Positions 37,571 through 52,680 of a stretch of DNA of 64,000 bases are shown one piece after another. A program made the translations under genes and the position numbers. How positions within the stretch are numbered: position 1 is the first letter of the stretch; every line of letters begins with the position of its first letter. The stretch comes from Kineococcus endophyticus. GTDB taxonomy: Bacteria > Actinomycetota > Actinomycetes > Actinomycetales > Kineococcaceae. The stretch spans positions 124,001 to 188,000 of the forward strand of contig NZ_JBFNQN010000008.1 of the NCBI RefSeq assembly GCF_040796495.1, given 5' to 3'. The notes below the pieces were generated by a model, which had not been told where the DNA came from, searched no databases, and worked only from the letters and a program-made list of their open reading frames with translations.

Positions 37571-37666
37571 CGTCCGAGGGCCTTCGACGAGGAGACGTCG
37601 CGCCTCCGGAACTGCCCGGGGACGGAGTTCCCGACCTGACGTCGCGCTGCAGTGCGGGACTCGGGG

Positions 37667-37696
37667 TTGACACGTTCGACTCCGAGTCGCTTGACT
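37667..37696 (+). promoter_or_regulatory. Promoter before SAM riboswitch
   Basis: TTGACA (37667-37672), a full -35 consensus, with TTGACT (37691-37696) as a weak -10 after 18 bases. Transcription would begin near 37702-37704, exactly at the 5' strand of riboswitch helix P1. An imperfect hairpin with GGAACT/AGTTCC arms at 37608-37631 may end the preceding sorC transcript. Confidence 0.55.
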
Positions 37697-37701
37697 GACC
37701 A

Positions 37702-37797
37702 CACCATCCAGAGCGGCCGAGAGACTTGGCTCGACGACGCCGCAGCAACCACCGGGTCCCACGGGTTCCGACAGGTGCTTCCGCCAAGACGATGGAG
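37702..37797 (+). promoter_or_regulatory. SAM riboswitch (S-box / SAM-I/IV clan)
   Basis: The sequence follows the S-box core in order: CCATCCAGAG (P1 5' strand and start of the internal loop), GAGAGACTTGGCTCGACGA (P2 with the GA kink region), GCAGCAACC (the conserved GCAACC), then a P3 hairpin and AGGTGCTTCCGCC (the GGUGCU-UCC box), and GATGG closing P1 against CCATC. The P4 arm of classical SAM-I seems absent, so it may be an actinobacterial SAM-I/IV variant. SAM binding normally switches downstream genes off when methionine is plentiful. It precedes a leader-peptide gene and the ABC operon. Confidence 0.85.
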
Positions 37798-37810
37798 TGC
37801 GGAGGACGTC

Positions 37811-37912
37811 GTGCAGAACGTGAACGGAGCCGCGGAGCGACCGCGGGTCCACCTGGTGCGCCGGCGCCACGTCGACCTCGCTCGGCAGTCGAGCAGCTGC
37901 TGTCCGGCCTGA
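37811..37912 (+). CDS. Short leader peptide ending in Cys-Cys-Pro-Ala
   Basis: A 33-codon frame starting at GTG 37811 with GGAGGA 5 bases before it. It ends RRRHVDLARQSSSCCPA. I recall many actinobacterial leader peptides with an RRHVDL-type core and a terminal Cys or Ser/Cys run before sulfur genes. The two Cys codons (TGC TGT, 37898-37903) sit at the foot of a hairpin that spans the stop codon. Ribosome stalling at these codons when cysteinyl-tRNA is short could alter the RNA fold and let transcription or translation proceed. A second in-frame GTG at 37820 is possible. Confidence 0.7.
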   Translation: MQNVNGAAERPRVHLVRRRHVDLARQSSSCCPA

Positions 37913-37918
37913 CCGGAC
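37902..37918 (+). terminator. Hairpin over leader stop codon, attenuator candidate
   Basis: GTCCGG, loop CCTGA, CCGGAC. The 5' arm begins inside the second Cys codon of the leader peptide, and the loop and 3' arm cover its TGA. A ribosome held at the Cys codons would keep this hairpin open. No T-run follows. A GC-rich 80-base stretch lies between it and the lipoprotein start. Confidence 0.5.
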
Positions 37919-38001
37919 CCTCACCCCCCACCTGCGCGGCGTCGCCCGCGGGCCTACCCCACCTGCTCACCTCGCTCGCGAGCACGTCCCCCAGGAGCAC
38001 T

Positions 38002-39645
38002 GTGCCCACCCGTCGGAGAACCCTGTCCACTGCCGCCGTTGCGGCTTCGGTCCTCTTGAGCGGCTGCGCCGCAACCTCGTCCGGGTCGGAAGGAGTGGGT
38101 CGCCGGGTCGATGGGGGGACCGCCGTCTACGCCACGGACCGGGAACCCACCTGCCTCGACCCGCACAACAGCGGGGACATGCCCCAGACCTACATCGCAC
38201 GGCAGTACCTCGACAGCCTCGTCTCGGCGACCTCCGACGGTCAGGTCGTCCCGTGGCTGGCGGACAGCTGGACGATCTCCCCGGACGGTCTGACGTACGA
38301 CTTCACCCTGAAGAAGGGTGTCGAATTCACCGACGGCACTCCCTTCGACGCCGCCGCGGTGGTGGCCAACTTCCACCAGATCCTCGACCCCGCGACGCAG
38401 TCGTCCACCGACCTGCTGTACCTGACGTCCTACTTCAAGCAGGCCGTGGCCGTCGACGACCACGTCGTCCGCATCGAGCTCCTGCGCCCTTACTCCCCCT
38501 TGCTCATCGCTCTGAGCCAGGCGTTCTTCGGCATGGAATCACCCAAGGCCATGGCCCGCGGCCTGGCCCAGAACTGCGTGTCGCCGGTCGGCACCGGACC
38601 CTTCGTGGTCAAGCGGTGGAACCGTGCCCGAGACGTGGAGCTCGTCGGGAACGAGAACTACAACTCCGCTCCGGCGAACGCCAAGCACCAGGGACCAGCC
38701 TACCTGGAGGGGGTGACCTGGCGGTTCCTCAAGGACAACACCACCCGCTACAGTGCGCTCGCCGGCGGTCAGGTGGACGCCATCTTCAACCTCCCCGCCG
38801 AGTCGCAGGAATCGGCGGAGTCCAATCCGGACCTGCAGCTCAGCAGCTTCGTCCACTCCGGTTCCCCCTTCAGCCTCGGTCTGAACACGCGCAGCGACGT
38901 CTTCTCCGACGTCCGCGTGCGCAAGGCGTTCGCGCACGCCTCCAACGCCCAGGCCGCCGTGCACAGCGCGTACGGCGGCGTCTACCCGTACGAGGGGAAC
39001 ACCATCTCCAGTGGAACCCCCTCCTACTCCGCAGCCTCGCACGACCCCTACCCCTACGACCCGGCCGAAGCCGGACGCCTCCTCGACGCGGCCGGCTGGA
39101 CCGGCCGGGACTCCGAGGGGTACCGCACCAAGGACGGCCGGCGGTTGACGGTGCTGCTGCCCTACAACTCCGACAGCGGGGAGACGCCCCCCGGGGACGT
39201 CACGATCCTGCAGAACATCCAGGCGGAGGAGAAGCTCGTCGGCATCGAGGTGGACCTCGAACCCCTCGACGGTTCTTCGATGAACTCCGTCTGGGGTGAC
39301 GAGACCAAGTACGACGCCCTGGGGACCTACTGGAACTCCCCCACCCCGCACGTCATGTACATCCAGTTCTCGCAGGCCACCCTCGACGTCGACAACGGCC
39401 AGAACGTGGCCTTCGACGCCGATCCCGCCCTGGACGACGTGCTGCTCAGGGCCAGTGCGACCACCGACCCGGGCACGCAGAAGGTGCTGTACGCCCAGGC
39501 GCAGCAGATGGTGGCCGACCACGCCTGGGCGGTCGGCCTCTACCCCGTCCAGACCCGACTCGCTGTGCGCAAGGAGCTGAAGGACGTCTGGATCGAGACG
39601 TCCGAGGGCGAACCGGTGCTGCACGACGCCTACCTGACGGAGTGA
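38002..39645 (+). CDS. ABC transporter solute-binding lipoprotein, family 5 (peptide/nickel type)
   Basis: 547 residues. The signal peptide is a lipoprotein type with Cys22 in VLLSGC. The body has the family-5 features: EPTCLDPHNSGD, ADSWTISPDGLTYDFTLKKGVEFTDGTPF, and AVGLYPVQTRLAVRKELKDVW near the end. The family binds oligopeptides, and also many small organic solutes. Because a SAM riboswitch and a Cys leader precede it and flavin monooxygenases of desulfurisation type follow, I infer an organosulfur ligand, for instance a thioether or sulfonated compound. GTG 38002 has AGGAG 4 bases upstream. Confidence 0.9.
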   Translation: MPTRRRTLSTAAVAASVLLSGCAATSSGSEGVGRRVDGGTAVYATDREPTCLDPHNSGDMPQTYIARQYLDSLVSATSDGQVVPWLADSWTISPDGLTYDFTLKKGVEFTDGTPFDAAAVVANFHQILDPATQSSTDLLYLTSYFKQAVAVDDHVVRIELLRPYSPLLIALSQAFFGMESPKAMARGLAQNCVSPVGTGPFVVKRWNRARDVELVGNENYNSAPANAKHQGPAYLEGVTWRFLKDNTTRYSALAGGQVDAIFNLPAESQESAESNPDLQLSSFVHSGSPFSLGLNTRSDVFSDVRVRKAFAHASNAQAAVHSAYGGVYPYEGNTISSGTPSYSAASHDPYPYDPAEAGRLLDAAGWTGRDSEGYRTKDGRRLTVLLPYNSDSGETPPGDVTILQNIQAEEKLVGIEVDLEPLDGSSMNSVWGDETKYDALGTYWNSPTPHVMYIQFSQATLDVDNGQNVAFDADPALDDVLLRASATTDPGTQKVLYAQAQQMVADHAWAVGLYPVQTRLAVRKELKDVWIETSEGEPVLHDAYLTE

Positions 39646-39652
39646 GACGACG

Positions 39653-40660
39653 ATGAGCACCTCCACCCCGACCCTCGAGGTCCGGCCCGCGGTGGCCCGC
39701 CCGTCCGGTCCGCGTCGTGCCGCGGCACGCCGGTGGGCCCTGAAGCTCGCCGGCGCGATCGGCCTCCTGTGGGCTGTCGGCACGATCGTCTTCCTGCTGG
39801 GGAACCTGGTCCCGGGGGACCCCGCCGTCGCGGTGCTGGGCGGTGCGTCCCAGCACCCCACCCCGGAGGCGGTCGCAGCCGTCCGAGCGGCCTACGGGTT
39901 CGACGACCCGCTGGTCGTGCAGTACCTGCACCACCTCGCCGGGTTGGCACGCTTCGACTTCGGCGAGTCGTACACGTTCAAGCAACCCGTCGTGGAAGTC
40001 ATCGGCAGCCAGTTCGGCCCGACCCTGGTGCTCACGGTGTCGGCGCTGGTCACGGCCTGGGTCCTGTCCGTCGCGTCGACGCTGCTGACGGCGGGGCGGA
40101 GCCGGTGGGCGACGACGGTGGGGTCCGGCGTCGAGGTCGTGGCCGCTGCTCTGCCCCAGTTCTGGCTGGGTCTCGTCCTGCTCGTCGTGGTCGCCGCCAA
40201 GCTCCAGTGGCTGCCGGTCATCGACAACGGGGTCGCCGGCCTGGTGCTGCCCACCCTGACCCTCGCGATCCCGCTGGCCGGTTTCCTCGGTCAGGTCACA
40301 CGGGACTAGTTCGAGAAGGCGCTCGGTGAACCCTTCGTCCTGTCCGCACGGGCCCGTGGCATGTCGGTGGCGGGTGTGCGGTGGCGGCACGTCCTCCGGC
40401 ACGCGGCGCTGCCCGGCATCAGCCTGTCCGGCTGGGCTCTGGGCTCGCTCATCAGCGGGGCGGTCGTCGTCGAGGCGATCTTCGCCCGGCAGGGGCTCGG
40501 TCAGGGCCTGGTCGGGGCCGTGGCGGCGCAGGACCTGCCGCTCGTCACCGGCATCACGTTCGTGGTCGCCCTCGTGTACGTGGTGGCCAACCTGCTGACC
40601 GACGCGGCGTTCGTCCTCGTCGACCCCCGTCTGCGTCACGCCCTGGGAGGCACCCGGTGA
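39653..40660 (+). pseudogene. DppB-type permease interrupted by in-frame TAG
   Basis: From ATG 39653 the frame encodes the N-terminal helix, the long periplasmic segment (GDPAVAVLGG, YGFDDPLVVQYLHHL, FGESYTFKQPV) and several TM helices, then hits TAG at 40307-40309 after GQVTRD. The same frame continues without a gap as FEKALGEPFVLSARARGMS (the EAA loop that docks to the ATPase) and more TM helices to 40660. One G-to-T change (GAG to TAG) would explain it. The first product of 218 residues lacks the ATPase-docking loop. The importer should fail unless the stop is read through or is a sequence error. Confidence 0.88.
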
Positions 40661-41538
40661 CCACCGTCGAGATCGCGACCGACCCGCAGGCCCACGCCTC
40701 CCCGGGGGTGGTCCGCAGGCCACGGTCCTCCTGGCGCTCCCCCGCCCTGCTGCTCGCACTGGCGGTGATCGCGCTGGTCGCGCTGGCGGCCCTCCTCCCG
40801 GGTGCCCTCACCCGCCAGGACCCGCTCGTCATCCACCTCGACCAGAGCTTCGCCGCCCCGTCCGCGGAGCACTGGTTCGGCAACGACCAGTCCGGCCGGG
40901 ACGTCTTCGCCCGTGTCGTGCACGGGACCCGGCAGTCCGTCCTCATCGGCCTCGGCGCCACCGCCCTGGCCATGGCCGGCGCGCTCGTCCTCGGACTGCT
41001 GGCCGGCCTCGGGTCGCGGTTCACCGACGGGGCCGTGAACCGCGCGGTCGAGGTCCTGTACGCCTTCCCCGGGCTCCTCCTGGCCCTCGTGCTCATCACC
41101 GTCTTCGGGAACGGCGCGCTGACGCAGATCGTCGCCGTGGGGGTGGCGTCCCTGCCGGGGTACACCCGCATGGTCCGCGGTCAGGTGCTCGCGGTGCGGT
41201 TTGCGCCGTACGTGCAGGCGGCCCGCACGCTGGGCCACCCGTCGCGGACGATCGTGGCCCGGACGATCCTGCCGAACGCCTTCCGCCCGCTCGTCGCCCT
41301 GATCACCCTCGGCGTGGGGCAGGCGATCGTCTGGGCCGCCGCACTGGGCTTCCTCGGCCTGGGCGTCCAACCCCCCGCGCCGGAGTGGGGGGCGATGCTG
41401 AACGCCGGCCGCAACTACCTCCAGCAGGCCTGGTGGCTCGACTTCTTCCCCGGTGCGGTCATCATCCTCACCACGCTCGCGGTCACCGTCCTGGGCCGCT
41501 TCCTGCAGAACGCCACCCGACCCGGGAGCCCCTCGTGA
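40657..41538 (+). CDS. DppC-type ABC permease
   Basis: A 293-residue inner-membrane permease with six predicted TM helices. Typical markers: HWFGNDQSGRDVFARVVHGTR after the first helix, the EAA loop YVQAARTLGHPSRTIVARTILPNAF, and LGFLGLGVQPPAPEWGAML near the end. It would pair with the interrupted DppB-type subunit to form the channel. The GTG start overlaps the previous stop (GTGA). It is intact, as are all later genes of the operon, which argues that any loss of function in the first permease is recent. Confidence 0.9.
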   Translation: MTTVEIATDPQAHASPGVVRRPRSSWRSPALLLALAVIALVALAALLPGALTRQDPLVIHLDQSFAAPSAEHWFGNDQSGRDVFARVVHGTRQSVLIGLGATALAMAGALVLGLLAGLGSRFTDGAVNRAVEVLYAFPGLLLALVLITVFGNGALTQIVAVGVASLPGYTRMVRGQVLAVRFAPYVQAARTLGHPSRTIVARTILPNAFRPLVALITLGVGQAIVWAAALGFLGLGVQPPAPEWGAMLNAGRNYLQQAWWLDFFPGAVIILTTLAVTVLGRFLQNATRPGSPS

Positions 41539-43220
41539 ACCCACTCCACCCCAGCGACCCCCCGCAGCACGATGCCCTCGTGCGGGTCAGGGACCTGTCG
41601 GTCTCCTTCGGCGACCGCCAGGTCGTCCACGACGTGTCCTTCGACCTCACGGCGGGTACCTGCGTCGCGATCGTCGGGGAGTCCGGCTCGGGCAAGAGCG
41701 TGTCCGCCCGGTCCCTCCTGGGGCTCACCGGACCGGGTTCGACGATCCACGCCGGCGAACTCTCCTTCGCCGGTCGCGACCTGCGGGCGCTGTCCGACCG
41801 CGCCTGGCGCAGAGTCCGAGGCCGCGACATCGGCCTGGTCCTGCAGGACGCGCTGGTCTCCCTGGACCCCCTGCGCCGCGTCGGCGACGAGGTCGCCGAA
41901 CCCCTGCGGCTGCACGGGGTCGGCCGCCGCCGGGAACGGCACGAGCGGGCCGTCGCCCTGCTGGGGGACGTCGGTGTGCCCGAACCCTCGTGGCGCGCCC
42001 GGCAGCGGCCGGCGGAACTGTCGGGCGGTCTGCGTCAGCGAGCGCTCATCGCCGCGGGCATCGCGCTGGACCCGCCCGTCCTCATCGCCGACGAACCGAC
42101 CACCGCGCTGGACGCGACAGTGCAGGCGCAGGTCCTCGACCTGCTCGCCGACGGTGTGGCCCGCGGTCGGAGCCTGCTGCTCATCAGTCACGACCTCGCC
42201 GTCGTGGACCGGCTGGCGGACACCGTCCTGGTGCTCCGCGAGGGGAGCGTCGTCGAGTCCGGCCCGACGGCGCAGGTGCTGGGTGACCCCCGGCACGAGT
42301 ACACCCGCCGGCTCATCGCGGCCGTACCCTCCGCGCAGTCGCGCGGGGAGAGGTTGTCCTCCCCGGCGGGCCCGGGGACGACGGCGGTGCCGCGTCCGCG
42401 GACCTCCGTCCTCCCGGCGCCGGTGGACGACACCCCTGCGCTGCTGCGGGTGTCCTCGGTCTCGAAGCACTACCGAGGCCCCGACGGCGTGACGCGCACC
42501 GTTCTCGACGACGTGTCGTTCGACGTCCGTCGCGGCGAGACCGTCGGCATCGTCGGGGAGTCGGGGTCCGGCAAGAGCACAGCCGCGGCGATCGCACTGG
42601 CCCTGGTGGAACCCGACGGGGGTGCCGTGGAGTTCGCCGGGCTCCCCTGGACGGGAGTCACCGAGAAGCAGCGCCGACCGCGGCGTCGTCGCCTCGGCTA
42701 CGTCCACCAGGACCCGTTGAGCTCGTTCGACCCCCGCCACGACGTGCGCCGCATCCTTCTGGACGCCGTCGGTCGGGTGGAGGAGGACCCGGCCGGTCGC
42801 GTCTCGGAACTCCTCGACCACGTGGGGTTGTCCGCTCGCCACCTCCACGACCACCCGTTGCGGTTGTCGGGTGGGCAGCGGCAGCGGGTGGCCATCGCCC
42901 GTGCCCTGGCCACCCGCCCTGACCTGGTGGTCTGCGACGAACCCGTCTCCGCCCTCGACGTGTCGATCCAGGCCCAGGTGCTCGACCTCCTGGGGGACCT
43001 GCAGGACGAGCTCGGCACGGCGTACCTGTTCATCAGCCACGACCTCGGGGTCGTGCACCACCTCAGCGACCGTGTGCTCGTCGTCCAGGGGGGACGCATC
43101 GTGGAGGAGGGCGACGCCGACCAGGTCTTCGAGCAACCCCGGCACCCGTACACGCAGGCACTGCTGGCAGCGGTCCCCCGGATCCGCCGCTCCACCGGCG
43201 TCCCGGGAGCCCGCCCGTGA
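41535..43220 (+). CDS. Fused DppD-DppF ABC ATPase
   Basis: 561 residues containing two complete ATPase modules that are separate genes in most importers. Module 1 (about 15-265): Walker A GESGSGKS, signature LSGGLRQRA, Walker B LIADEPT, switch His in ISHD. Module 2 (about 305-550): GESGSGKST, LSGGQRQRVAIARAL, VVCDEPVSALD, ISHDLG. Each ends in the oligopeptide-type tail (HEYTRRLIAAVP, HPYTQALLAAVP). Both sites look active. The start overlaps the permease stop (GTGA). The product supplies energy for the riboswitch-controlled importer. Confidence 0.93.
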   Translation: MNPLHPSDPPQHDALVRVRDLSVSFGDRQVVHDVSFDLTAGTCVAIVGESGSGKSVSARSLLGLTGPGSTIHAGELSFAGRDLRALSDRAWRRVRGRDIGLVLQDALVSLDPLRRVGDEVAEPLRLHGVGRRRERHERAVALLGDVGVPEPSWRARQRPAELSGGLRQRALIAAGIALDPPVLIADEPTTALDATVQAQVLDLLADGVARGRSLLLISHDLAVVDRLADTVLVLREGSVVESGPTAQVLGDPRHEYTRRLIAAVPSAQSRGERLSSPAGPGTTAVPRPRTSVLPAPVDDTPALLRVSSVSKHYRGPDGVTRTVLDDVSFDVRRGETVGIVGESGSGKSTAAAIALALVEPDGGAVEFAGLPWTGVTEKQRRPRRRRLGYVHQDPLSSFDPRHDVRRILLDAVGRVEEDPAGRVSELLDHVGLSARHLHDHPLRLSGGQRQRVAIARALATRPDLVVCDEPVSALDVSIQAQVLDLLGDLQDELGTAYLFISHDLGVVHHLSDRVLVVQGGRIVEEGDADQVFEQPRHPYTQALLAAVPRIRRSTGVPGARP

Positions 43221-44419
43221 GCCGCCGTGGGCCAGGTGAGCTCGCGGAGGTCCTGGACGGCATCGCCGCCGGCGCGGTCGGGCGGGAGGAGAAGCGGGAA
43301 CTGCCCTTCGCCGCGGTCGACGCGTTGCGCGAGGCCGGGGTGACCGCGTTGACGGTGCCCACCGAGTTCGGCGGGGGCGGTGCCACGGACGAGGAGCTGT
43401 TCGCCGTCCTCGTCGACCTCGCGGCGGCCGACTCCAACCTCCCGCAACTCCTGCGCGCGCACTTCGCCCACGTCGAGGGACTGCGCCTGGACCCCGACCG
43501 GCCGGGCACCGCCGACTGGTTCCGGGCCGTGGCCGCCGGCGAGGTGTTCGGCAACGCGACGCACGAGAGGAGCTCGGCCGTCGTGGAGTCGCTGTCGACG
43601 CGACTGACGCGCGTCGGGGACGGGTGGCAGCTCGACGGTGTGAAGCACTACACCACCGGGTCGCTCTTCGCGGACTGGATCGCGGTGAGCGCCCAGCGGG
43701 AGGGGCCCGACGGGACGACGGTGCCCGTCGGCGTGGTGGTGTCGAGCAGGGCTGCGGGGGTCGACCTGCGCGACGACTGGAACGGTTTCGGTCAACGCCT
43801 GACCGGCAGTGGGACGACCCGCTTCGACCGGGTCCGCGTCGACCCCGCCCACGTGGTCGAGCAGCACGGTGACGGGGTCCCCACGCCGATGACGGCCTTC
43901 GTGCAGCTCGTCCTGCTGGCCTGCCTCGCCGGCACCGCGCAGGCCGTGGTGCGCGATGCGACGGACTTCGTCCGCACCCGCACCCGTGTGTACCGGCATG
44001 GATCCGGGGCGACGGCCGCCCAGGACCCCCTCGTCCTGCACGTCGTGGGGCGGCTCGCCGCGGACGCGGCCGCGTCCCGTGCGCTCGTCCTGGACGCCGC
44101 GCGCGCCCTGGACGCCGTGCACGCGGCCACGGGTCCCGAACGCACCGGAGCCGTGGAACAGGCCGAACTGGCCACCGTGCAGGCCCAGGCGGTGGTCGTG
44201 GAACTCGTGCTGCGCTCGACGACGGCTCTCTTCGACGTGGGGGGCGCCTCCGCGACCGACCTCGGTCGGCACCTCGACCGGCACTGGCGCAACGCCCGGA
44301 CCCTCGCCTCGCACAACCCGGTCGCCTACCAGTTGCGGACCGTCGGCGACCACCTCGTCAACGGGTCCGGGCTGACGTACGCCTGGGCGACCGGCGAGGC
44401 CGGGAAGGAGATCGCGTGA
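43217..44419 (+). CDS. Acyl-CoA-dehydrogenase-fold flavin monooxygenase (DszC/SfnB-like)
   Basis: 400 residues with the acyl-CoA dehydrogenase fold, but with the markers of the FMN-dependent monooxygenase branch: VFGNATHERS, KHYTTGSLFADWI, and DRHWRNARTLASHNP near the C-terminus. DszC oxidises dibenzothiophene sulfur and SfnB relatives act in dimethyl sulfone use; both need a flavin reductase, which is not encoded here. The GTG overlaps the ATPase stop (GTGA). Under a SAM riboswitch, oxidation of an imported thioether or sulfone is a good guess. Confidence 0.87.
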   Translation: MSRRGPGELAEVLDGIAAGAVGREEKRELPFAAVDALREAGVTALTVPTEFGGGGATDEELFAVLVDLAAADSNLPQLLRAHFAHVEGLRLDPDRPGTADWFRAVAAGEVFGNATHERSSAVVESLSTRLTRVGDGWQLDGVKHYTTGSLFADWIAVSAQREGPDGTTVPVGVVVSSRAAGVDLRDDWNGFGQRLTGSGTTRFDRVRVDPAHVVEQHGDGVPTPMTAFVQLVLLACLAGTAQAVVRDATDFVRTRTRVYRHGSGATAAQDPLVLHVVGRLAADAAASRALVLDAARALDAVHAATGPERTGAVEQAELATVQAQAVVVELVLRSTTALFDVGGASATDLGRHLDRHWRNARTLASHNPVAYQLRTVGDHLVNGSGLTYAWATGEAGKEIA

Positions 44420-45798
44420 GCGCCGTGAAGCCGTTGTTGCTGAACCTGTTCGAGATGAACTGCGTCAGCCACATCACGCACGGGTTGTGGCGTTTGCCCG
44501 GGAACCGCCGCCACACGTTCGAGGACGTCGAGTACTGGACGACGCTGGCCCGCACCGCCGAGGAGGCGGGGTTCGACGCCGTGTTCCTGGCCGACGTCGT
44601 CGGAGCCTACGACGTGTTCCGCGGCGGACCGGAGACCGCTCTGCGGGAGGGACTGCAGATCCCGAGCAACGACCCGCTGCTCGTCGTCCCGGCGATGGCC
44701 GTCGTGACCGAGCACCTCGGGTTCGGGGTGACCTTCTCCACCAGCTACGAACCCCCGTTCGCCTTCGCGCGACGCATGAGCACCCTCGACCACCTGACCC
44801 GGGGGCGCGTGGGCTGGAACGTCGTGACGTCGTACCTGCCGAACGCGGCCCGGAACTTCGGGCTCGCCGACGAGATCGAGCACGACCACCGCTACGCCAT
44901 CGCCGACGAGTTCATGGAGGTCGTCTACAAGTTGTGGGAGGGGTCCTGGGACGACGACGCGGTGGTCGCCGACCGCGACCGTGGCGTCTACACCGACCCG
45001 ACCCGGGTGCGGTACGTGCACCACACCGGCGAGCACTTCCGCGTCGCCGGACCGCACCTGACGTCACCCTCCCCCCAGAGGACGCCGCTGGTGGTGCAGG
45101 CCACCGCCTCCCGGGCCGGCATCGAGTTCGCCGGCCGGCACGCCGAGCTCGTCTTCACCGGCGGACCCGACGAGGCGTCGGTGCGACGGACCATCGCCGC
45201 GGTGCGGGAGGCAGCCGTCCGGCACGGCCGCCAGGCCGAGGACGTGAAGTTCGTGGTCCAGGCCAGCGTGGTCACGGGCCGCACCGCTGCGGAGGTCGCG
45301 GCGAAGGTGGCCGAGCACGAGCGCTTCGACAGCCTCGACGGTCGGCTCGCCCACGCGTCCCTGCCCTTCGACCCCACCGCCCATCCGCGGGACCGGACCG
45401 TCGGCGAGGCGCTGGCCGCGGAGGGCAGACTGGACGACCCCGCCACCCGGGGGTTCCCGCTCGAGCAGCGGATCGCGGACTTCCTCGACGCGACGGGCCG
45501 CTTCGCCCGGACCTTCTCCGTGGCCGGGGAACCCCACGTCGTCGTGGCGGAGATCGAGCGCTGGCTCGACGACGTCGGCATCGACGGCATCAACCTCACC
45601 CAGCACCACAGCTACGGGACCCTGGAGGACTTCGGCGAGTTCGTGGTCCCGCGGTTGCGCGAGCGTGGCCGCCGCCCCGAGGGGTACGTCAAGGGTCAGA
45701 CGATGCGCGAACGCTTCGGTGGAGCCGGACCGCACCTCCCGCCCGACCACCCAGGCCGCCGGTTCGCCGGCGGGAGGGGTCTTCGAGGACGCACCTGA
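44416..45798 (+). CDS. LLM-class flavin monooxygenase (NtaA/SnaA/DszA family)
   Basis: A 460-residue bacterial-luciferase-like barrel of the NtaA/SnaA/DszA/SoxA branch: LFEMNCVSHITHGLW at the start, GFDAVFLADVVG, the SNDPLLVVPAMA stretch, RGRVGWNVVTSYLPNAARNFG, and SPQRTPLVVQATASRAGIEFA. Members use reduced FMN and oxygen to cleave C-S or C-N bonds. Translationally coupled to the DszC-like gene (GTGA), it could perform the sulfur-releasing step after S-oxidation. The substrate is not known. No NADH:FMN reductase gene is seen in the operon. Confidence 0.9.
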   Translation: MSAVKPLLLNLFEMNCVSHITHGLWRLPGNRRHTFEDVEYWTTLARTAEEAGFDAVFLADVVGAYDVFRGGPETALREGLQIPSNDPLLVVPAMAVVTEHLGFGVTFSTSYEPPFAFARRMSTLDHLTRGRVGWNVVTSYLPNAARNFGLADEIEHDHRYAIADEFMEVVYKLWEGSWDDDAVVADRDRGVYTDPTRVRYVHHTGEHFRVAGPHLTSPSPQRTPLVVQATASRAGIEFAGRHAELVFTGGPDEASVRRTIAAVREAAVRHGRQAEDVKFVVQASVVTGRTAAEVAAKVAEHERFDSLDGRLAHASLPFDPTAHPRDRTVGEALAAEGRLDDPATRGFPLEQRIADFLDATGRFARTFSVAGEPHVVVAEIERWLDDVGIDGINLTQHHSYGTLEDFGEFVVPRLRERGRRPEGYVKGQTMRERFGGAGPHLPPDHPGRRFAGGRGLRGRT

Positions 45799-45863: not shown

Positions 45864-46931
45864 GTGGGACGACGCGTCGGCATCGAGGAGGAGTTCCTGC
45901 TGGTCGACGCCGACACGGGCAGGGCTCGTGGCGACGGGCCGGCGGTGGCGCGGGCCGTGGAGGAGCAGACCGAACTGCAGCAGCAGCAGGTCGAGACCGG
46001 CACCGCTCCGCACACGGACCTGCGGGAGGCGGCCTCCGACCTCCTCGGACGCCGCGCCCGCACCGCTGCGGCCGCCCGGGAGCGGGGGGCCCGGCTGCTC
46101 GCCCTGGCGACCCACCCGCTGCCGACGGCGTCCGCCACCACCCGCGGCGAGCGCTACCAGCGCCTGGAGGACCACTACGGGTTGCTGGTCCGCGAACAGC
46201 TGACGTGCGGGTGCCACGTCCACGTCGAGGTCCCCGACCGGGGCGAGGCCGCCGCCGTCCTGGACCGCCTGCGGCCCTGGACGTCCGTGCTGCTGGCCCT
46301 GTCGTCCAACTCCCCGTTCTGGCAGGGCGCCGACAGCGGGTACGCCTCGTACCGCACCCAGGTCTGGTACCGCTGGCCGACGGCCGGACCGACCGAACCG
46401 TTCGGGGACGCGGCCGGCTACGACCGGGCCACGGCGCGGTTGCTGGCCACGGGCGTCCCCCTCGACGCGGGGCAGTTCTACTTCGACGCCCGCATCTCGG
46501 CGACGCACCCCACGGTGGAGGTCCGCGTCGCCGACGTCTGCCTGCTGGCCCGCGACGCGGTGCTCCTCGCCGCCCTCACCCGGGGACTCGTGGAGACCGC
46601 GGCCCGCGAGGCGGCGGACGGCCTCCCGGTGCCCGACGTCTCCGTCGCCGCCCTGCGCGCGGCGTCCTGGCGTGCCGCGCACGACGGGACCGGCGGCGAG
46701 CTCGTCTCCCCCACCTCCGGCCGGCCGGAACCCGCCGACGCGGTGCTGACCGCCCTGGTGGACCACGTGCGTCCCGCCCTGCTCGACGCCGGGGACGAGG
46801 AGCTGGTGTTGACCGGGCTGGCGGACGTCCGCCGCCGCGGCACGGGCGCGGACTGGCAGCGCGCCACGGCGGCCCGGTCGGGGGTGGACGCCGTGGCGCG
46901 CGAGGCCGCCGAGGCGACCCTGCGGTCCTGA
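45864..46931 (+). CDS. Carboxylate-amine ligase YbdK family (glutamate-cysteine ligase 2)
   Basis: 355 residues of the GCS2 family: GIEEEFLLVD at the start, then LEDHYGLLVREQLTCGCHVHVEVPD (ligand region with paired His), SSNSPFWQGADSGYASYRTQVWYRWP and FDARISATHPTVEVRVADV. Relatives have weak glutamate-cysteine ligase activity or join other amines to glutamate. The gene follows the LLM gene by 65 bases in the same direction. Whether it shares the riboswitch-controlled transcript is unclear, but a thiol-related ligase here supports a sulfur theme. The GTG start at 45864 is chosen for the typical short lead into GIEEEF. Confidence 0.88.
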   Translation: MGRRVGIEEEFLLVDADTGRARGDGPAVARAVEEQTELQQQQVETGTAPHTDLREAASDLLGRRARTAAAARERGARLLALATHPLPTASATTRGERYQRLEDHYGLLVREQLTCGCHVHVEVPDRGEAAAVLDRLRPWTSVLLALSSNSPFWQGADSGYASYRTQVWYRWPTAGPTEPFGDAAGYDRATARLLATGVPLDAGQFYFDARISATHPTVEVRVADVCLLARDAVLLAALTRGLVETAAREAADGLPVPDVSVAALRAASWRAAHDGTGGELVSPTSGRPEPADAVLTALVDHVRPALLDAGDEELVLTGLADVRRRGTGADWQRATAARSGVDAVAREAAEATLRS

Positions 46932-46935
46932 ACCG

Positions 46936-47763
46936 TCAGACGCGCCGCTTGAGACTGCCCTTGAGGTCCGGGACGTCCGCGAGCAGGCGCTTGGTGTAGT
47001 CCGCCTGCGGCGCGAAGATCACCTCGTCCGTGCTGCCGCGTTCCACGACCTTCCCGTGCTCCATGACCGCGACGCGGTCGGCCAGGTAGCAGGCCTGCCC
47101 GATGTCGTGGGTGATGAACAGCACCGTCAGCCCGAGGTCGTCCTTCAGGTCGTGCAGGACGTTGAGGACGTTCACGCGCAGCGTGGCGTCGAGCATGCTC
47201 GTCGCCTCGTCGGCCAGCAGGACCTTGGGCCGCATCATGAGCGCACGAGCCAGCATGACGCGCTGCCGCTGACCACCCGACAACTGGTGCGGGTACTTGT
47301 GCAACGTGTCGGCCGGGGTGAGCCCGACGTAGCCCAGGCACTCCTCGATGAGGGCGTCCGCCTCGTCCCGCCCGACCGAGGCCAGCGCCAGGCTGCGCCG
47401 CAGCAGGCCGCCGACGGCGAAGAACTGGTTGAACGAGGCGAACGGGTCCTGGAAGACCGCCTGCACCTCGCTCCAGTACGACCGCAACTGCTTGCCCCGC
47501 AGGTTCGTCACGTCCTGCCCGCGGAAGGAGATCGCGCCGGAGGTCACCGGCATGAGCCGCAGCAGCATCCGCGCGAGGGTCGACTTGCCGGAACCGGACT
47601 CCCCCACGACGGCCAGCACGTTGCCGGCCGGGAAGTCCAGGGAGACCCGGTCCACGGCCACGACCTTCGACCCGGCAACGTGGAACTCCTTCACGACGTC
47701 CCGGCAGGCGAGCACGCTGTCGGTCGCCGTCGCAGCGGCCGGTCCGGTGGTTCCCGTCGTCAT
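46936..47763 (-). CDS. ABC importer ATPase (DppF type)
   Basis: A 275-residue ATPase, the last gene of the second importer operon. Walker A GESGSGKST, Q-loop VFQDPFASFN, signature LSGGQRQRVMLARAL, Walker B VLLADEAT and switch His in FITHD. Walker B is followed by ATSMLDATLR, where most relatives have PTSALD, a modest change. The ATG overlaps the preceding ATPase stop (ATGA). Unlike the riboswitch-controlled importer, the two ATPases are separate genes here. Confidence 0.9.
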   Translation of the reverse strand: MTTGTTGPAAATATDSVLACRDVVKEFHVAGSKVVAVDRVSLDFPAGNVLAVVGESGSGKSTLARMLLRLMPVTSGAISFRGQDVTNLRGKQLRSYWSEVQAVFQDPFASFNQFFAVGGLLRRSLALASVGRDEADALIEECLGYVGLTPADTLHKYPHQLSGGQRQRVMLARALMMRPKVLLADEATSMLDATLRVNVLNVLHDLKDDLGLTVLFITHDIGQACYLADRVAVMEHGKVVERGSTDEVIFAPQADYTKRLLADVPDLKGSLKRRV

Positions 47764-48692
47764 CGCAGACCTCCCTCGGTCGGCTGCGGGCGGGTCCGGC
47801 GGTCCCGGCCCCGTGCCCGCGTCTCCTCCGTCGGGTCCAGCACCGACGACAGCAACTTCTTCGTGTACGGGTGCTGCGGGTCGTGGACGAGCTGTTCCGT
47901 GGGGCCCGTCTCGACGATCTTCCCCGCGTTCATGATGGCGAGCTTGTCCGACACCTGGGACAGCACGGGCAGGTCGTGCGTGACGAACACGACCCCCGAC
48001 ATGATGCGCTGCTCGACCATCGCCAGGAGCATCTCGACCAGCATCCGCTGGCTCGACACGTCCAGGGCGGACGTCGGTTCGTCGGCGATGAGCAGCCGGG
48101 GGTTCAGCAGGGTCGAGACGACCGTGATGACGCGCTGCTTCATCCCGCCGGACAACTGGTGCGGGTAGGAGTCGAGCACGCGGACCGGCATCTCCAGCAT
48201 CTTCAGCCGGTCCCGGGCCAGGTCCAGCGCCTGGTCCCGCGTCACGGACCGGTCGTGCGCCCGCATGACGTCGTGCACGAGGTTGCGCACGCGCAGGGTC
48301 GGGCTGATGGCGTTCATCGCCCCCTGCGGCAGCATCGAGACCACGCCGCCGCGGTACTTCCGCTGCCGCTTCAGGTCCTGGTCGCCGCGCAGCGTCGTCA
48401 GGTCGATCTGCTCGCCGTCGATCTCGAGCGTGCCCTCCACGACGTACAGCGGGGGGTTGGCGATCATGGCCAAGGAGTTGCCCAGGGTGGTCTTGCCGCA
48501 CCCCGACTCCCCCGCGAGGCCGAGGATCTCCCCCTCGCCGAGTTCCAGGGTCACCCCGTCCACCGCGGTGAAGTCCCGGTCCCCGCCGCCGTAGACGGCC
48601 CGCACGCCGACCGCGCGGGCGAGCAGCGTCGACGTGCCCGTCCCCGTCCCCGTGCCTGACGTCGGTGCCCCGGACGCTCCGGTGGTGCTCAC
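47760..48692 (-). CDS. ABC importer ATPase (DppD type)
   Basis: A 310-residue ATPase with Walker A GESGCGKTT, Q-loop MLPQGAMNAISPTLRV (the DppD-type long Q-loop), signature LSGGMKQRVITV, Walker B LLIADEPTSALD and switch VTHDLPV. The end carries the oligopeptide-type tail HPYTKKLLSSVLDP that is followed by a basic segment. A Thr/Gly/Ser-rich N-terminal lead of about 22 residues may be disordered. Its GTG overlaps the permease stop (GTGA). Confidence 0.9.
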   Translation of the reverse strand: MSTTGASGAPTSGTGTGTGTSTLLARAVGVRAVYGGGDRDFTAVDGVTLELGEGEILGLAGESGCGKTTLGNSLAMIANPPLYVVEGTLEIDGEQIDLTTLRGDQDLKRQRKYRGGVVSMLPQGAMNAISPTLRVRNLVHDVMRAHDRSVTRDQALDLARDRLKMLEMPVRVLDSYPHQLSGGMKQRVITVVSTLLNPRLLIADEPTSALDVSSQRMLVEMLLAMVEQRIMSGVVFVTHDLPVLSQVSDKLAIMNAGKIVETGPTEQLVHDPQHPYTKKLLSSVLDPTEETRARGRDRRTRPQPTEGGLR

Positions 48693-49717
48693 GACCGTCC
48701 CCCTTCGTGCGCCGTCCTGGCCCGGCCGGCGCCCACCCCGGCACGTTCGCCGCCCACGGGTCGCGTGGCCGCGGCCGCCTGCGCCTCGGCGAGGCGGCGG
48801 GCCTGCGTCTGCTTCATCTGCTTGCGCTTGCCGCGGCGCAGCCGCGGGTTGAACACCTCGTCGAGGCTGGCCTGCAGCAGCAGGAACCCGAAGGAGACGA
48901 GGGTCAGGACGATGGTCGGCGGCAGGAACGCCCACCAGGCGCCGCTGGCGACGGCTTGGAAGGCCAGCGCCCAGTGCAGCTGGGTCCCGAGGGAGTCCGC
49001 ACCCGCCGGCCCGAGCCCCAGCATCGACAGCGCCGCTTCGGCGAGGATCGCCCCGGAGACCTGCAGCACGAACGCCATGACCGCGTAGGACAGGATGTAC
49101 GGCAGCACGTCGCGGACGAGGATGCCGCCGAGGCGCGCCCCGGACAGCCGGGCCACGTCGATGTGCTCGCGGGTGGCGACCGAACTGGCCTGGGCGCGGA
49201 CGGCGCGAGCCGTCCAGGGCCAGGACGTGATGCCGATGACCACCGCGAGGGACCACATGGTGCTCTTGGGCAGGGAGATCGAGATGAGGATCAGGACGAT
49301 GATCGAGGGGATGGCCAGGACCACGTTCGTGATGCCCATGAGCAGTTCCTCGAGCCAGCCGCCGACGTAGCCCGCGAGGAGCCCGATCGCGACACCGATG
49401 GTCGTCGCGATGATGCCGGCGACCAGCCCGATGACGAGCGAGGTGCGGGTACCGGCCATGAGGACGGCGAGGACGTCGTGCCCGAAGTTGTCGGTGCCGA
49501 ACAGCAGGCCGTTCCCCGGCGGGTCGTACAGCGACCCGACCTTCTCGCTCGACGACGTCGGGTAGAAGTACCCCGCGACCCCGAGCAGCAGGACGAGCAC
49601 GACGAAGCCGAGGGCGACCCAGAACCGGGCGGAGAAGTTGAGGCTGCGGAACGGGTTGGACCGTGGAGCGGTCGCCTCGTCCGCGGTCGCCACGCTGGAG
49701 ACGTTCGGTGTGGACAT
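48689..49717 (-). CDS. ABC importer permease (DppC type)
   Basis: A 342-residue permease: a cytoplasmic lead, TM helix 1 (WVALGFVVLVLLLGVAGYF), the periplasmic LFGTDNFGHDVLAVLMAGTR, then five more helices with the docking loop HIDVARLSGARLGGILVRDVLP. The last 60 residues form a long basic and Ala-rich cytoplasmic tail that most DppC proteins lack. ATG 49717 has GAGAGG upstream and lies 1 base after the stop of the partner permease. Confidence 0.9.
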   Translation of the reverse strand: MSTPNVSSVATADEATAPRSNPFRSLNFSARFWVALGFVVLVLLLGVAGYFYPTSSSEKVGSLYDPPGNGLLFGTDNFGHDVLAVLMAGTRTSLVIGLVAGIIATTIGVAIGLLAGYVGGWLEELLMGITNVVLAIPSIIVLILISISLPKSTMWSLAVVIGITSWPWTARAVRAQASSVATREHIDVARLSGARLGGILVRDVLPYILSYAVMAFVLQVSGAILAEAALSMLGLGPAGADSLGTQLHWALAFQAVASGAWWAFLPPTIVLTLVSFGFLLLQASLDEVFNPRLRRGKRKQMKQTQARRLAEAQAAAATRPVGGERAGVGAGRARTAHEGGRS

Positions 49718-49718
49718 G

Positions 49719-50729
49719 TCACCTCTCCCCGGAAGCGGCCGCACGGATGCGCGGATCGACGATGCCGTAGACGATCTCGACCAGGAAGTTGGCCGCGAGC
49801 ACCGCCAGCGTGATGATGAGCGTGATCGCCTGGATCACCGGGTAGTCGTTCTGCGAGATGGCGTTGAAGAGCAGCGTGCCGACCCCCGGGTAGTTGAACA
49901 CCAGTTCGGTGATGAGCGCGCCGCTGACCAGCGTCCCGATCGACAGGGCCAGCCCCGTGATCTGCGGGAGCATCGCGTTCCGGAAGATGTACCGGGTGAT
50001 GCGGTTGTCCCCGATGCCCATGGCGCGGCCGTAGTTGACGTAGTCCCCGCCGAGCTCGTAGATCGCCATGGAGCGCATCCCGACGGCCTGGCCGCCGATG
50101 AAGACGATGACCAGTGACAGGAACGGCAGCCAGTAGTACTGCAGGGCGTCGGTGACGAAGTCCAGCGAGAACGCCGGGCTGTTGCCGAGGGAGTAGGCCC
50201 CGCCGACGGGGAAGATCCCGGCGACGACGGCCAGCCCGTACAGCAGGAGGATGGACAGGCAGTAGTACGGCATGGCCGACAGGAACAGCGAGGACGTGAA
50301 GACGCTGCGGTCCCAGTTGCCGCCGCGGAAGGCCGCGACGGCGCCGACGACGTTCCCGAGCACCCAGCCGATCACGATCGCCGGCAGCTGGACCGCGATC
50401 GACCACGGCAGGGCCTGCCCGAGCAGCGAGTTCACCGACGTCGGGTAGGACGCGAACGACGTCCCGAGGTCGCCGCTGAAGACCTTGCCGAGGTAGGTGA
50501 GGAACTGCTGCCACAGCGGGGCGTTCAACCCGAACTGCTGGACGAACCCCTCGTAGATCTGCTTCTGCTGCTCACCGTTGACGGCCCCGCCCCGGGCCAG
50601 GTTGGACACGATGACGTCCACCGGGTTGCCGGGAACGAGCCGCGGGAGCAGGAAGTTCAGGGACACCGCCGCGACGAGCGCGACGACGTACCACACGGTC
50701 TTGCGCGCGATGTACTGTCCGAGCTTCAC
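49719..50729 (-). CDS. ABC importer permease (DppB type)
   Basis: A 336-residue permease with six TM helices, beginning YIARKTVWYVVALVAAVSL and LPRLVPGNPVD, with the docking loop NYGRAMGIGDNRITRYIFR and the C-terminal YGIVDPRIR. It is intact, in contrast to the DppB-type gene at 39653. The start is GTG 50729, 9 bases after the stop of the binding-protein gene. It forms the channel with the DppC-type subunit. Confidence 0.9.
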   Translation of the reverse strand: MKLGQYIARKTVWYVVALVAAVSLNFLLPRLVPGNPVDVIVSNLARGGAVNGEQQKQIYEGFVQQFGLNAPLWQQFLTYLGKVFSGDLGTSFASYPTSVNSLLGQALPWSIAVQLPAIVIGWVLGNVVGAVAAFRGGNWDRSVFTSSLFLSAMPYYCLSILLLYGLAVVAGIFPVGGAYSLGNSPAFSLDFVTDALQYYWLPFLSLVIVFIGGQAVGMRSMAIYELGGDYVNYGRAMGIGDNRITRYIFRNAMLPQITGLALSIGTLVSGALITELVFNYPGVGTLLFNAISQNDYPVIQAITLIITLAVLAANFLVEIVYGIVDPRIRAAASGER

Positions 50730-50738
50730 GGCCCGACC

Positions 50739-52562
50739 TCAGGCTTCGATCTTCTTGATCTTGAAGAGCCAGTCGTTCCCGGCCCCGCGGAACATCGGCG
50801 GCGCGTAGTCGTTGGCCTGGGTCGGGAAGTTCGTCCAGTTGCTCGCGTTGAACTCGAAGAACTCGTCCGGCCGGTACATGAGGGGGATGGCCGGCGCCTG
50901 CTGGCGGTACATGTCGTCCAGGGCCGTGAGCGCCTGCTTCTTCGACCCGTCGTCCGGCGCCGCCGCGGCCGCCTCCAGGAGGTCGTTCACCTGGTCGTTG
51001 GTCCACCGACCGTAGTTGCGGAAGGCCGTCTGCCCCAGCGGGGCGAGCTCGACGTTGCTCATGACGTCGCTGAAGCGCTGCCACGGCGTCGCCGGGTTGG
51101 TGCCCGACACGTACCAGCAGCACATGTCGAAGTCGCCGTTCGCCACCGACGTCGTGACCTGCGCCTGCTGGGGGAAGTTCGTGGCGGCGTCGATGCCGAT
51201 CGCCTTCAGGTTCTTGGCGACGATCTCCAGCGCGGCGTTCCAGTCCGTCCACCCCTGGGGGGTGATGAGCTTCCACGGCCCGAGGCGCTGACCGTCCTTG
51301 GCGTAGATCCCGTCCGAGCCCTTGGCGTACCCGGCGTCGGTGAGGGTCTTCTCCGCCTTGGTCGCGTCGAAGGACCAGCCGTCGGCCTTGGCGCGGTCTC
51401 CGTCGAACCACTTGTCCTCGGCGCCGCCGGGGATGATGAGCGAAGCCTGCACGTCGGCGGAGTACCCCGACATCGCCGTCTCGGCGATCGAGGCGTAGTC
51501 GATGGCGAAGGCGACGGCACGGCGGACCGCCGGATCGGCCAGCGCGCCGCGGGTCGTGTTGAAGATGAACATCGGCATGGAGCCCGGCACGTAGTAGGGC
51601 TTGTCCTTGACGTAGGTCCCGACGGGCTTGCCCGACTCCCACATCTTCCAGATCTGCGGGACGAACTGCTGCATGACGTCCAGCTCGCCGTTCTGGAACT
51701 TCAAGTTGCCGTCCTCGTTGGACTTGAAGATCGGGTGGATGATCTTCGTGGGGGCCGGCAGGCCGCCGTAGAACTTCTGTCCCCAGTACTTCTCGTTGCG
51801 GGCCAGGATGATCTGGGTCTGGTCGGCCTTCTCCAGGGTGTAGGGGCCCGAGCCGAGGAGCTCGGTGGTCTCCCAGCTGGCCAGCTTGTTGCCGGTCTCG
51901 GACGCGACCTTCTCGAAGACGGCCTTCGGGAGGATGAACTGGACGGCGAGCTGCTGCAGGATCATGTCCACGTTCTTGCGGTCCTGGTTGATCGCGACCG
52001 TGATGGTGTCGCCGCTCGCGGTGATGTCGTCGGCCTCGACCCAGAAGGACGCCACCGTGAGCGTCGGGTCGATCTTCCCCAGCTGGAAGGTGTAGAGGAC
52101 GTCGTCCGCGGTCAGCGCCGTCCCGTCCGACCACGTGACGCCGTCCTGCAGCGTCAAGGAGACCGACGACGTGCCGTCGACCTTGTAGTCCGCGGCCAGG
52201 CCCGGCTTGAGCTCGCCGGAGACGATGTCGAACCGGAGGAGGGTCTCGTAGACGTACTGCGCGACGTTGTTCGCGGCCGGCCACGCCGGGGCCCCCGCGA
52301 AGGTGTTGAAGTTCGTGGGCGGGCTGAACTGGAACCCCGCCAGGAACAGCTGGTCGGCCGCGTCGCCCCTGCGCCCGCCGCCGATCTTGCCGTTGTTGCC
52401 GATGCCGGGCAGCGTGCTGTCCTTCGTGCCGCCACCGCCACCGCTGCCACCGCCGCAGGCGGCGAGGGCGACCCCACCGGCCGCGACGCTGGAGACGGCG
52501 AGGAAGCGGCGGCGCGTGGCGCTGCCCGTGGGTTCGGGTGCGCTGGACGGGGTGGTGGACAT
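50739..52562 (-). CDS. ABC solute-binding lipoprotein, family 5, twin-arginine exported
   Basis: 607 residues. The leader has a twin-Arg motif RRRFLAV and a lipobox with Cys36 (ALAAC), followed by a Gly-rich linker, so it is probably exported folded by Tat and lipid-anchored. The family-5 body shows GLAADYKVDGTSSVSLTLQDGVTWSDGT and AIPLMYRPDEFFEFNASNWTNFP. Family-5 proteins bind peptides, but a branch binds oligosaccharides. The sugar-type enzymes encoded upstream in the same direction make a glycoside or oligosaccharide plausible. ATG 52562 has AAGGA upstream. Confidence 0.9.
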   Translation of the reverse strand: MSTTPSSAPEPTGSATRRRFLAVSSVAAGGVALAACGGGSGGGGGTKDSTLPGIGNNGKIGGGRRGDAADQLFLAGFQFSPPTNFNTFAGAPAWPAANNVAQYVYETLLRFDIVSGELKPGLAADYKVDGTSSVSLTLQDGVTWSDGTALTADDVLYTFQLGKIDPTLTVASFWVEADDITASGDTITVAINQDRKNVDMILQQLAVQFILPKAVFEKVASETGNKLASWETTELLGSGPYTLEKADQTQIILARNEKYWGQKFYGGLPAPTKIIHPIFKSNEDGNLKFQNGELDVMQQFVPQIWKMWESGKPVGTYVKDKPYYVPGSMPMFIFNTTRGALADPAVRRAVAFAIDYASIAETAMSGYSADVQASLIIPGGAEDKWFDGDRAKADGWSFDATKAEKTLTDAGYAKGSDGIYAKDGQRLGPWKLITPQGWTDWNAALEIVAKNLKAIGIDAATNFPQQAQVTTSVANGDFDMCCWYVSGTNPATPWQRFSDVMSNVELAPLGQTAFRNYGRWTNDQVNDLLEAAAAAPDDGSKKQALTALDDMYRQQAPAIPLMYRPDEFFEFNASNWTNFPTQANDYAPPMFRGAGNDWLFKIKKIEA

Positions 52563-52680
52563 GGTGGGTTCCTTCCGAGCGGTCTGGTGGGTCCTGGTGG
52601 ACGGGGACGGTCGTCGACGGTGACGACGTCTCCGCGGTGGGACTGCGGACGGGCGGTGCGTTCCTGCGGTGTGCGGTGGT

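Follow-up and report, generated by a model that had tools for sequence, protein, structure and literature searches.

Upstream of a putative organosulfur operon of Kineococcus endophyticus (Kineococcaceae) we found two regulatory elements arranged in series on the forward strand: a SAM-I-type (S-adenosylmethionine, SAM) riboswitch aptamer without helix P4 (37701-37798) and a short cysteine leader peptide gene (37811-37912). They are followed by the gene for the substrate-binding protein of a family-5 ABC importer (38002-39645). Coordinates are those of the window, the whole 64,000-nucleotide (nt) stretch that was analysed (positions 124,001 to 188,000 of contig NZ_JBFNQN010000008.1), which belongs to a genome assembly of 5.04 Mb in 46 contigs (G000). 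A first-pass annotation of this DNA had placed a SAM riboswitch before the importer operon; the aptamer is indeed upstream, but the leader gene, which falls inside the interval of that annotation (37667-38001) and went unreported there, intervenes.

We scanned the whole window with cmscan against 4227 Rfam families at their gathering cut-offs. RF00162 (SAM-I) was the only family to reach its cut-off, matching 37701-37798 on the plus strand with 53.7 bits (cut-off 44.4, E 1.4e-9) over all 108 model positions, and a permissive scan of 37600-38100 (501 bases), which reports the best match per clan only, showed no other RNA family. RF00634 (SAM-IV) gave 5 matches in the genome, none of them at the aptamer site (P5 and pseudoknot PK-2 were sought through this model only), and RF01725 (SAM-I/IV) gave none in the whole genome at E 0.001; both identities were rejected. 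The S-box motifs read in the first-pass annotation (P1 strands CCATC/GATGG, GAGAGACTTGGC, GCAACC and GGTGCTTCC) are all present, and its SAM-I assignment is borne out by the covariance-model score. Judged by its sequence, the SAM-I-type riboswitch in front of the operon is real, with SAM as its presumed ligand.

The aptamer contains the P1-P2-P3 core and the L2 pseudoknot of SAM-I. P1 is formed by CCATC (37704-37708) and GATGG (37791-37795), P2a/P2b occupies 37713-37743 and includes, at 37733-37738, the 3' side of the kink-turn (6 nt), and P3, placed by the RF00162 match and the family alignment, covers 37744-37779; CTTGG in L2 (37725-37729) pairs with CCAAG (37784-37788) as the pseudoknot. 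In an alignment of 52 aptamers, 96.2% of the cells were paired, a percentage biased towards the Kineococcaceae aptamers from which the pairing structure was derived, and both-side changes were present in 10 pairs, compared with 3.5 in shuffles (0 of 500 as high). The cells of P2a were 100% paired, with both-side changes in 3 of 5 pairs. The pseudoknot was also 100% paired in the 52 sequences and showed both-side changes in 4 of 5 pairs, appearing as CTTGGC/GCCAAG, CCTGGC/GCCAGG and CCCGGC/GCCGGG.

Helix P4 is absent between P3 and the 3' strand of P1, as the first-pass annotation claimed, and this absence is shared by a whole group. A search of 12 Kineococcaceae genomes at E 0.001 yielded 90 SAM-I matches, of which 87 exceeded the cut-off. 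The distance from P3 to P1 was 12-14 nt in 89 of these aptamers (the ends of the remaining one were misplaced by the rule) and never exceeded 19 nt, compared with 24-35 nt in the P4-bearing aptamers represented by the 30 best-scoring SAM-I matches of a 296-genome sample of the class. A covariance model built from the Kineococcaceae P4-less aptamers (R1) scored the window aptamer, itself part of the model's alignment, at 89.4 bits. In the class sample, R1 matched strongly at 10 sites of the window's genome and scored above 60 bits at 17 sites elsewhere; one of the latter (G257) was read as P4-bearing and dropped, leaving 16 P4-less aptamers in 13 genomes outside the window's genome, with matches below 60 bits counted as P4-bearing without individual reading. 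The earlier suggestion of a variant subclass stands as a P4-less SAM-I group present in a minority of the sampled actinomycete genomes, but not as SAM-IV or SAM-I/IV, neither of which matched. The current RF00162 model scores this group lower than the P4-bearing aptamers compared.

Between the aptamer and the importer gene lies an open reading frame (ORF) of 33 codons with a GTG start (37811-37912; VQNVNGAAERPRVHLVRRRHVDLARQSSSCCPA) and the C-terminus SSSCCPA. It scored 31.2 bits against NF042934 ('putative leader peptide', an actinobacterial family; curated cut-off 27) and also had a match, short of the cut-off, to the Ms4527A model of Cys-rich leaders. Two Cys codons, TGC TGT (37898-37903), are followed by two further codons and the stop, and Cys codons thus stand near the end of a short ORF ahead of an operon whose protein families suggest a role in sulfur metabolism. 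The Shine-Dalgarno (SD) sequence of the leader, GGAGG, is located at 37801-37805. Because the aptamer precedes the ORF and the ORF has an SD, a leaderless start is unlikely. A hairpin, GTCCGG-CCTGA-CCGGAC (37902-37918), was predicted across the leader stop codon in the fold of 37886-37930 (-11.9 kcal/mol) and may be inhibitory; past the stop, a C-rich, G-poor stretch (37913-37985; 55% C, 23% G) could serve as a Rho loading site. No intrinsic terminator was found in 37600-38100, and a transcription stop of that kind was set aside.

Two other leaders of the window's genome scored 39.0 bits (above the cut-off) and 18.6 bits (below it) against NF042934. Ten leaders from related loci were compared with the same model: four exceeded the cut-off, including all three SAM-IV-associated ones tested, three fell below it (25.4, 17.6 and 16.5 bits), one showed a weak match to another leader model only, and two matched no family. 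The window's genome also holds a cysteine leader, QRRHVDLCRTRSAVCR (L252, contig C1, 17570-17611), with no SAM aptamer seen upstream, the RF00162 and RF00634 matches lying elsewhere; it is possibly leaderless.

Using a fixed rule, which required a short ORF with an xDL-type motif, a Cys shortly behind it and an early stop, we recognised a leader after 32 of the 90 Kineococcaceae SAM-I aptamers. When only aptamers with at least 250 nt downstream were considered, the leader was present in 31 of 88, compared with an average of 0.025 and never more than 1 in 40 rounds of dinucleotide shuffling; the rule found none in 88 reverse complements and none in 348 stretches further downstream. Clearly, the pairing of aptamer and leader is not due to chance. 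None of the 30 best-scoring P4-bearing SAM-I aptamers of the class sample was followed by a leader. Within the window's genome, 5 of 10 SAM-I and 0 of 5 SAM-IV aptamers were. At three of the 16 P4-less loci of the class sample, reading by eye revealed short Cys ORFs of another type just past the aptamer (L166, EMDCMRMSSALCLR; L167, VTDCMRTISMSCR; L164, VIDQCRRGVTACRR); a comparison of those of L166 and L167 with NCBIfam returned no family, and the three possibly represent a further leader-peptide family.

A pattern search for the leader motif in a species-genome collection (84,980 species) returned 32 loci. RF00162 was above its cut-off at 29 of them, and the other three (L027, L039 and L040) were dropped before counting. 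The 29 loci belong to Rhodococcus, Pseudonocardia, Kineococcus, Actinomycetospora, Plantactinospora, Quadrisphaera, Segeticoccus, Ornithinimicrobium and a metagenome-assembled genome of Mycobacteriaceae; selected by the leader motif, they show the spread of the arrangement and not its frequency. Four aptamers, three of them with a leader, are common to the pattern set and the Kineococcaceae set, and removal of duplicates left 117 aptamers and 58 leaders. A search for plasmid copies of the element was unrewarding: megablast gave no match for a Rhodococcus example and there was none for the peptide, and the window sequence retrieved its aptamer part only, in 3 records.

The promoter was examined in the same collection. 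TTGACA at 37667-37672 is the probable -35 box, and transcription is expected to start near 37700. Of 121 aptamers, 46 had TTGAC 33-39 nt upstream (44 of 117 once duplicates were removed), compared with 5 of 4457 control stretches. The TTGACA promoter of the first-pass annotation is upheld in that the hexamer is present and its position is shared by related aptamers, but a generic sigma-70 scan found no promoter at the locus.

The leader is retained where the aptamer differs. Four further genomes of the genus contain homologues of the binding protein (42-44% identity). Three of these (G004, G006 and G010) have the gene order of the window (binding protein, two permeases, ATPase, LLM monooxygenase), with no match to the SfnB-like gene described below in the stretches fetched around the homologues. 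Ahead of each of these three operons is a SAM-IV aptamer (103.8-104.8 bits), with a leader above the NF042934 cut-off immediately behind it. In the fourth genome (G007), the binding protein is at the start of contig C441 and a SAM-IV aptamer with leader at the end of contig C224, which presumably adjoin. Among the 46 SAM-IV aptamers of Kineococcaceae, a leader was found after four, exactly the three above and the contig-end case. Thus, SAM sensing and the leader go with this type of operon, the aptamer class differing; the simplest reading, though not proof, is that the aptamer class was replaced in evolution. The two leaders most similar to that of the window were rejected as marks of orthologous operons: downstream of L115, inspection by eye showed LLM genes and another importer, and downstream of L089 no evident sulfur operon in 8 kb (ORFs of at least 250 amino acids, by eye).

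For each of the 58 distinct leaders, the start was taken as the in-frame start with the best SD. The SD so chosen overlapped core P1 by 1-2 nt in 40 leaders, was 0-2 nt away in 14, and was 5 nt away in 3, that of the window included (L022 was misplaced by the rule and omitted from the overlap counts). The last Cys was 0-3 codons from the stop in 46 leaders; an RRHVDL-type motif was shared, and 17 leaders had a single Cys. In 28 pairs of leaders chosen by aptamer similarity (of 46 pairs, those with fewer than 45 aligned bases or fewer than 4 differences were dropped), differences at codon positions 1, 2 and 3 numbered 119, 99 and 170 (chi-square p 3e-5), and the reading frame of the leader is therefore under constraint. 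A pN/pS ratio of 0.36, lower in 49 of 49 pairs, was not relied on, since these pairs were chosen by peptide similarity and the test is partly circular. In the 70 nt past the leader stop, C was at least 1.5 times as abundant as G in 42 of 57 loci, compared with 40 of 220 coding control stretches.

We consider it probable that the two elements form a nested two-sensor switch, in which SAM gates the entry of ribosomes into a cysteine-sensing attenuator and the operon is on only when both SAM and cysteine are low. The architecture itself, a P4-less SAM-I aptamer followed by a cysteine leader with its ribosome binding site (RBS) abutting P1, is plain at the level of the sequence; from it we infer ligand binding, the sign of the control and its output. 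At high SAM, the aptamer would close P1. In most leaders the SD overlaps or adjoins P1, so that ribosomes should have difficulty entering the leader ORF once SAM has closed P1. Since no ribosome can stall on a leader that is not translated, the downstream genes would be off, either through loading of Rho on the C-rich stretch past the leader or because the importer RBS stays folded. At low SAM the leader would be translated. With charged Cys-tRNA plentiful, the ribosome would then reach the stop and leave, and the operon would still be off; with charged Cys-tRNA scarce, it would stall on TGC TGT next to the stop and block the C-rich stretch or the inhibitory hairpin, turning the operon on. Such an output suits an operon supplying sulfur to both the SAM and the cysteine pools. 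Since the aptamer precedes the cysteine leader and not the importer gene directly, the simple SAM-repressed control proposed in the first-pass annotation is probably only half of the circuit. With slightly less assurance, we think it likely that this is a recurrent, modular two-metabolite gate of actinomycetes, in which a P4-less SAM-I or a SAM-IV aptamer controls entry into a cysteine attenuator ORF.

Several observations weigh against the nested switch. The SD of the window leader lies outside core P1; in the predicted fold of the window locus, it was more paired without ligand than when the aptamer helices were imposed, and folding therefore lends no support here to the sign of the control by SAM. 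The whole-leader fold was no more stable than shuffles (z 0.47) and was uninformative. The presence of an SD in every leader is partly by construction, and the C-richness past the leader was measured against coding, not intergenic, stretches. The leader was not recognised after 58 of the 90 Kineococcaceae SAM-I aptamers. Outside the window's genome, the fixed rule found it after 2 of the 16 P4-less aptamers of the class sample (L163 and L192); the pairing is therefore common in Kineococcaceae and sparser outside. On a Rhodococcus antarcticus plasmid, a P4-less aptamer precedes an LLM gene with no leader recognised. Taken with the 14 of 16 in the class sample, these cases indicate that the leader is dispensable for use of the aptamer. 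The homologues that carry the SAM-IV aptamer share 42-44% identity in the binding protein, one of the nearest relatives of the leader (L089) is without an evident sulfur operon, and a permease gene of the operon in the window's genome contains a stop codon.

Some of these observations would also suit two independent controls in one leader, the SAM aptamer acting separately, for instance on transcription, and the cysteine leader through a different route, with no gating of leader translation by SAM. The window SD outside core P1, the failure of folding to show SD release without P1, and the occurrence in one genome of aptamers without a leader and of at least one leader without an aptamer are all in keeping with such an arrangement. 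We nevertheless regard it as unlikely, since in 54 of 58 distinct loci the chosen SD and core P1 either overlap or are separated by no more than 2 nt, and no intrinsic terminator was found in the region. More doubtful still is the idea that the short ORF encodes a functional small protein or merely delivers ribosomes to the importer gene, cysteine not being sensed. A shared RRHVDL-type motif, the variable number of Cys residues and the single Cys of 17 leaders could be so explained, and an upstream ORF (uORF) linked to a riboswitch in M. tuberculosis acts by reinitiation according to the available text of PMC11260477; set against this are the proximity of Cys to the stop (at most 3 codons in 46 of 58), where the rule required Cys but stop-adjacency only loosely, and the membership in the same peptide family of M. 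smegmatis Cys-rich leaders, which are reported to be cysteine-responsive attenuators. That the SAM-I riboswitch alone controls the operon directly, as the first-pass annotation had it, and that the ORF is incidental, seems very improbable to us: the aptamer is well supported and most aptamers of the family have no recognised leader, but the leader of the window is above a curated cut-off, the chance expectation was 0.025 in 88, and the leader is kept where the aptamer class differs.

Each component of the nested switch is already known, and the combination of SAM aptamer and cysteine leader appears to be the new part. The Cys-rich leaders of M. smegmatis were reportedly identified as cysteine-responsive attenuators by Canestrari in 2020. 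Citing papers (PMC13236596 and PMC9094748), in their available portions, describe them in the same way, and the former terms these cases translation attenuation. Actinobacterial cysteine leaders (the NF042934, Ms4527A and Ms5788A models; PMC1262725, in part) resemble the ORF of the window in their Cys codons by the stop, the absence of a terminator found and a pyrimidine-rich spacer; those of mycobacteria are termed leaderless in the title of Canestrari 2020, as given in PMC13236596, whereas the window ORF has an upstream aptamer and an SD. For mycobacterial cys leaders, Seliverstov 2005 raised the possibility of Rho loading masked by a stalled ribosome and called its own prediction rather weak (PMC1262725, from the portion available). 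The lack of a terminator, the C-rich stretch and the hairpin at the stop fit such a mechanism, or one in which the next RBS is freed.

On the riboswitch side, the window aptamer shares with RF00162 SAM-I P1, P2 with the kink-turn side, P3, the L2-J3/4 pseudoknot and the conserved core; it differs in that its group has no P4 and precedes a leader ORF in 32 of 90 family cases. SAM-IV (RF00634) resembles it in lacking P4 and having PK-1, as stated in the available part of PMC6890682, and in being found, together with a leader of this type, ahead of operons homologous to that of the window, but the window aptamer has no RF00634 match. Mycobacterial riboswitches controlling uORFs provide precedents, namely B12 and M-box riboswitches of M. 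tuberculosis (PMC11260477 and PMC12810186, each in part). The nearest precedent found is the M-box of pe20, where a uORF with Cys codons lies behind the aptamer; its ligand, however, is Mg2+, uORF1 is described as having little conservation and its codons as rare ones, and the main text of PMC12810186, from which the word cysteine is absent, claims no amino-acid sensing. The B12 riboswitches of M. tuberculosis have leaders with translated uORFs that alter expression of the next gene, but PMC11260477 describes no cysteine leader, and its main text lacks the word cysteine. In Bacillota, T-box and SAM tandem leaders before ssuABC likewise combine the sensing of tRNA charging and of SAM at a single importer operon; according to the available text of PMC12452182, these are two riboswitches in series and not a riboswitch ahead of a leader peptide.

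In the open literature searched, we found no description of a SAM riboswitch that precedes or gates a cysteine leader, which is weak evidence of absence as most subscription papers lie outside it; nor did that literature yield a riboswitch directly targeting an amino-acid attenuator, or an aptamer class exchanged while the attenuator stayed. An aptamer and ribosome stalling joined in series at one leader would make a natural two-input gate for sulfur status, in which the second sensor could report on the cell only if the first allowed it. It would help to explain the presence of both elements at some actinomycete sulfur operons and supply a sequence signature by which others can be found. It also suggests that the sensing part of a regulator may be replaced by an unlike one with the logic kept.

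The genes downstream of the leader are all on the plus strand. The binding-protein gene (38002-39645; PF00496), with an SD AGGAG recognised by eye at 37993-37997, is followed by permease 1 (39653-40660), permease 2 (40657-41538) and a double ABC ATPase (41535-43220), the latter two assigned by family profile matches. In permease 1 there is an in-frame TAG at 40307-40309; the frame runs past it to a normal end, homology crosses it in four homologues and intact copies exist. The TAG reflects either a gene lost only recently or a mistake in the assembly. Next come a DszC/MsuC/SfnB-like flavin monooxygenase (43217-44419), whose best PDB match is the methanesulfinate monooxygenase 6u76 and whose score against the SfnB family TIGR04022 (298.8 bits) is below the curated cut-off of 430.9, and an LLM monooxygenase of the NtaA/DmoA family (44416-45798; TIGR03860, 459.2 bits, cut-off 279.7). 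The sequences nearest to the latter in PDB are the alkane monooxygenase 3b9n (LadA) and the dimethyl-sulfide monooxygenase 6ak1. A GCS2/YbdK-type glutamate-cysteine ligase-like gene (45876-46931) has an uncertain start and uncertain membership in the operon. The operon content described in the first-pass annotation is correct as to the family-5 importer and the DszC/SfnB/MsuC-like and LLM flavoenzymes, but the SfnB cut-off was missed and the LLM enzyme is not nearest to DszA. Its proposal of organosulfur scavenging fits these families and the presumed SAM control.

The first genes behind the aptamers were picked by an ORF rule (5 of 121 loci were without a usable ORF and left unscanned, and 4 loci were counted twice). 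Behind 57 leader-bearing aptamers these were most often an LLM monooxygenase (9), a Cys/Met pyridoxal phosphate (PLP) enzyme (7), a family-5 binding protein (7) and a rhodanese (7); behind 59 leader-free aptamers, LLM (10), MTHFR (9), the Cys/Met PLP enzyme (9) and a family-5 binding protein (6). Of the 26 families in the leader-bearing set, 25 were listed, and MTHFR was not one of them. The best NCBIfam match of the Cys/Met PLP enzyme was OAH/OAS sulfhydrylase behind leader-bearing aptamers and O-succinylhomoserine sulfhydrylase behind leader-free ones. This spectrum fits dual control of genes feeding cysteine and methionine, as a tendency only.

Beyond the operon, on the minus strand, the ORFs of 46936-53075 appear by eye to form a second family-5 ABC importer operon running in the opposite direction, with no Rfam match. 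The window's genome contains fifteen SAM-sensing aptamers, 10 SAM-I (RF00162 over cut-off) and 5 SAM-IV; the SAM-I-bearing genomes listed for the class, under stricter filters, mostly have one SAM-I each. At two places in the window's genome (contig C9, 229348-229714, and contig C7, 30363-30715), a SAM-I and a SAM-IV aptamer face away from each other across some 160 nt, and coordinates indicate similar pairs in G001, G003, G004, G005 and G009. Each side of a divergent region thus seems to be served by a different class of aptamer for the same ligand.
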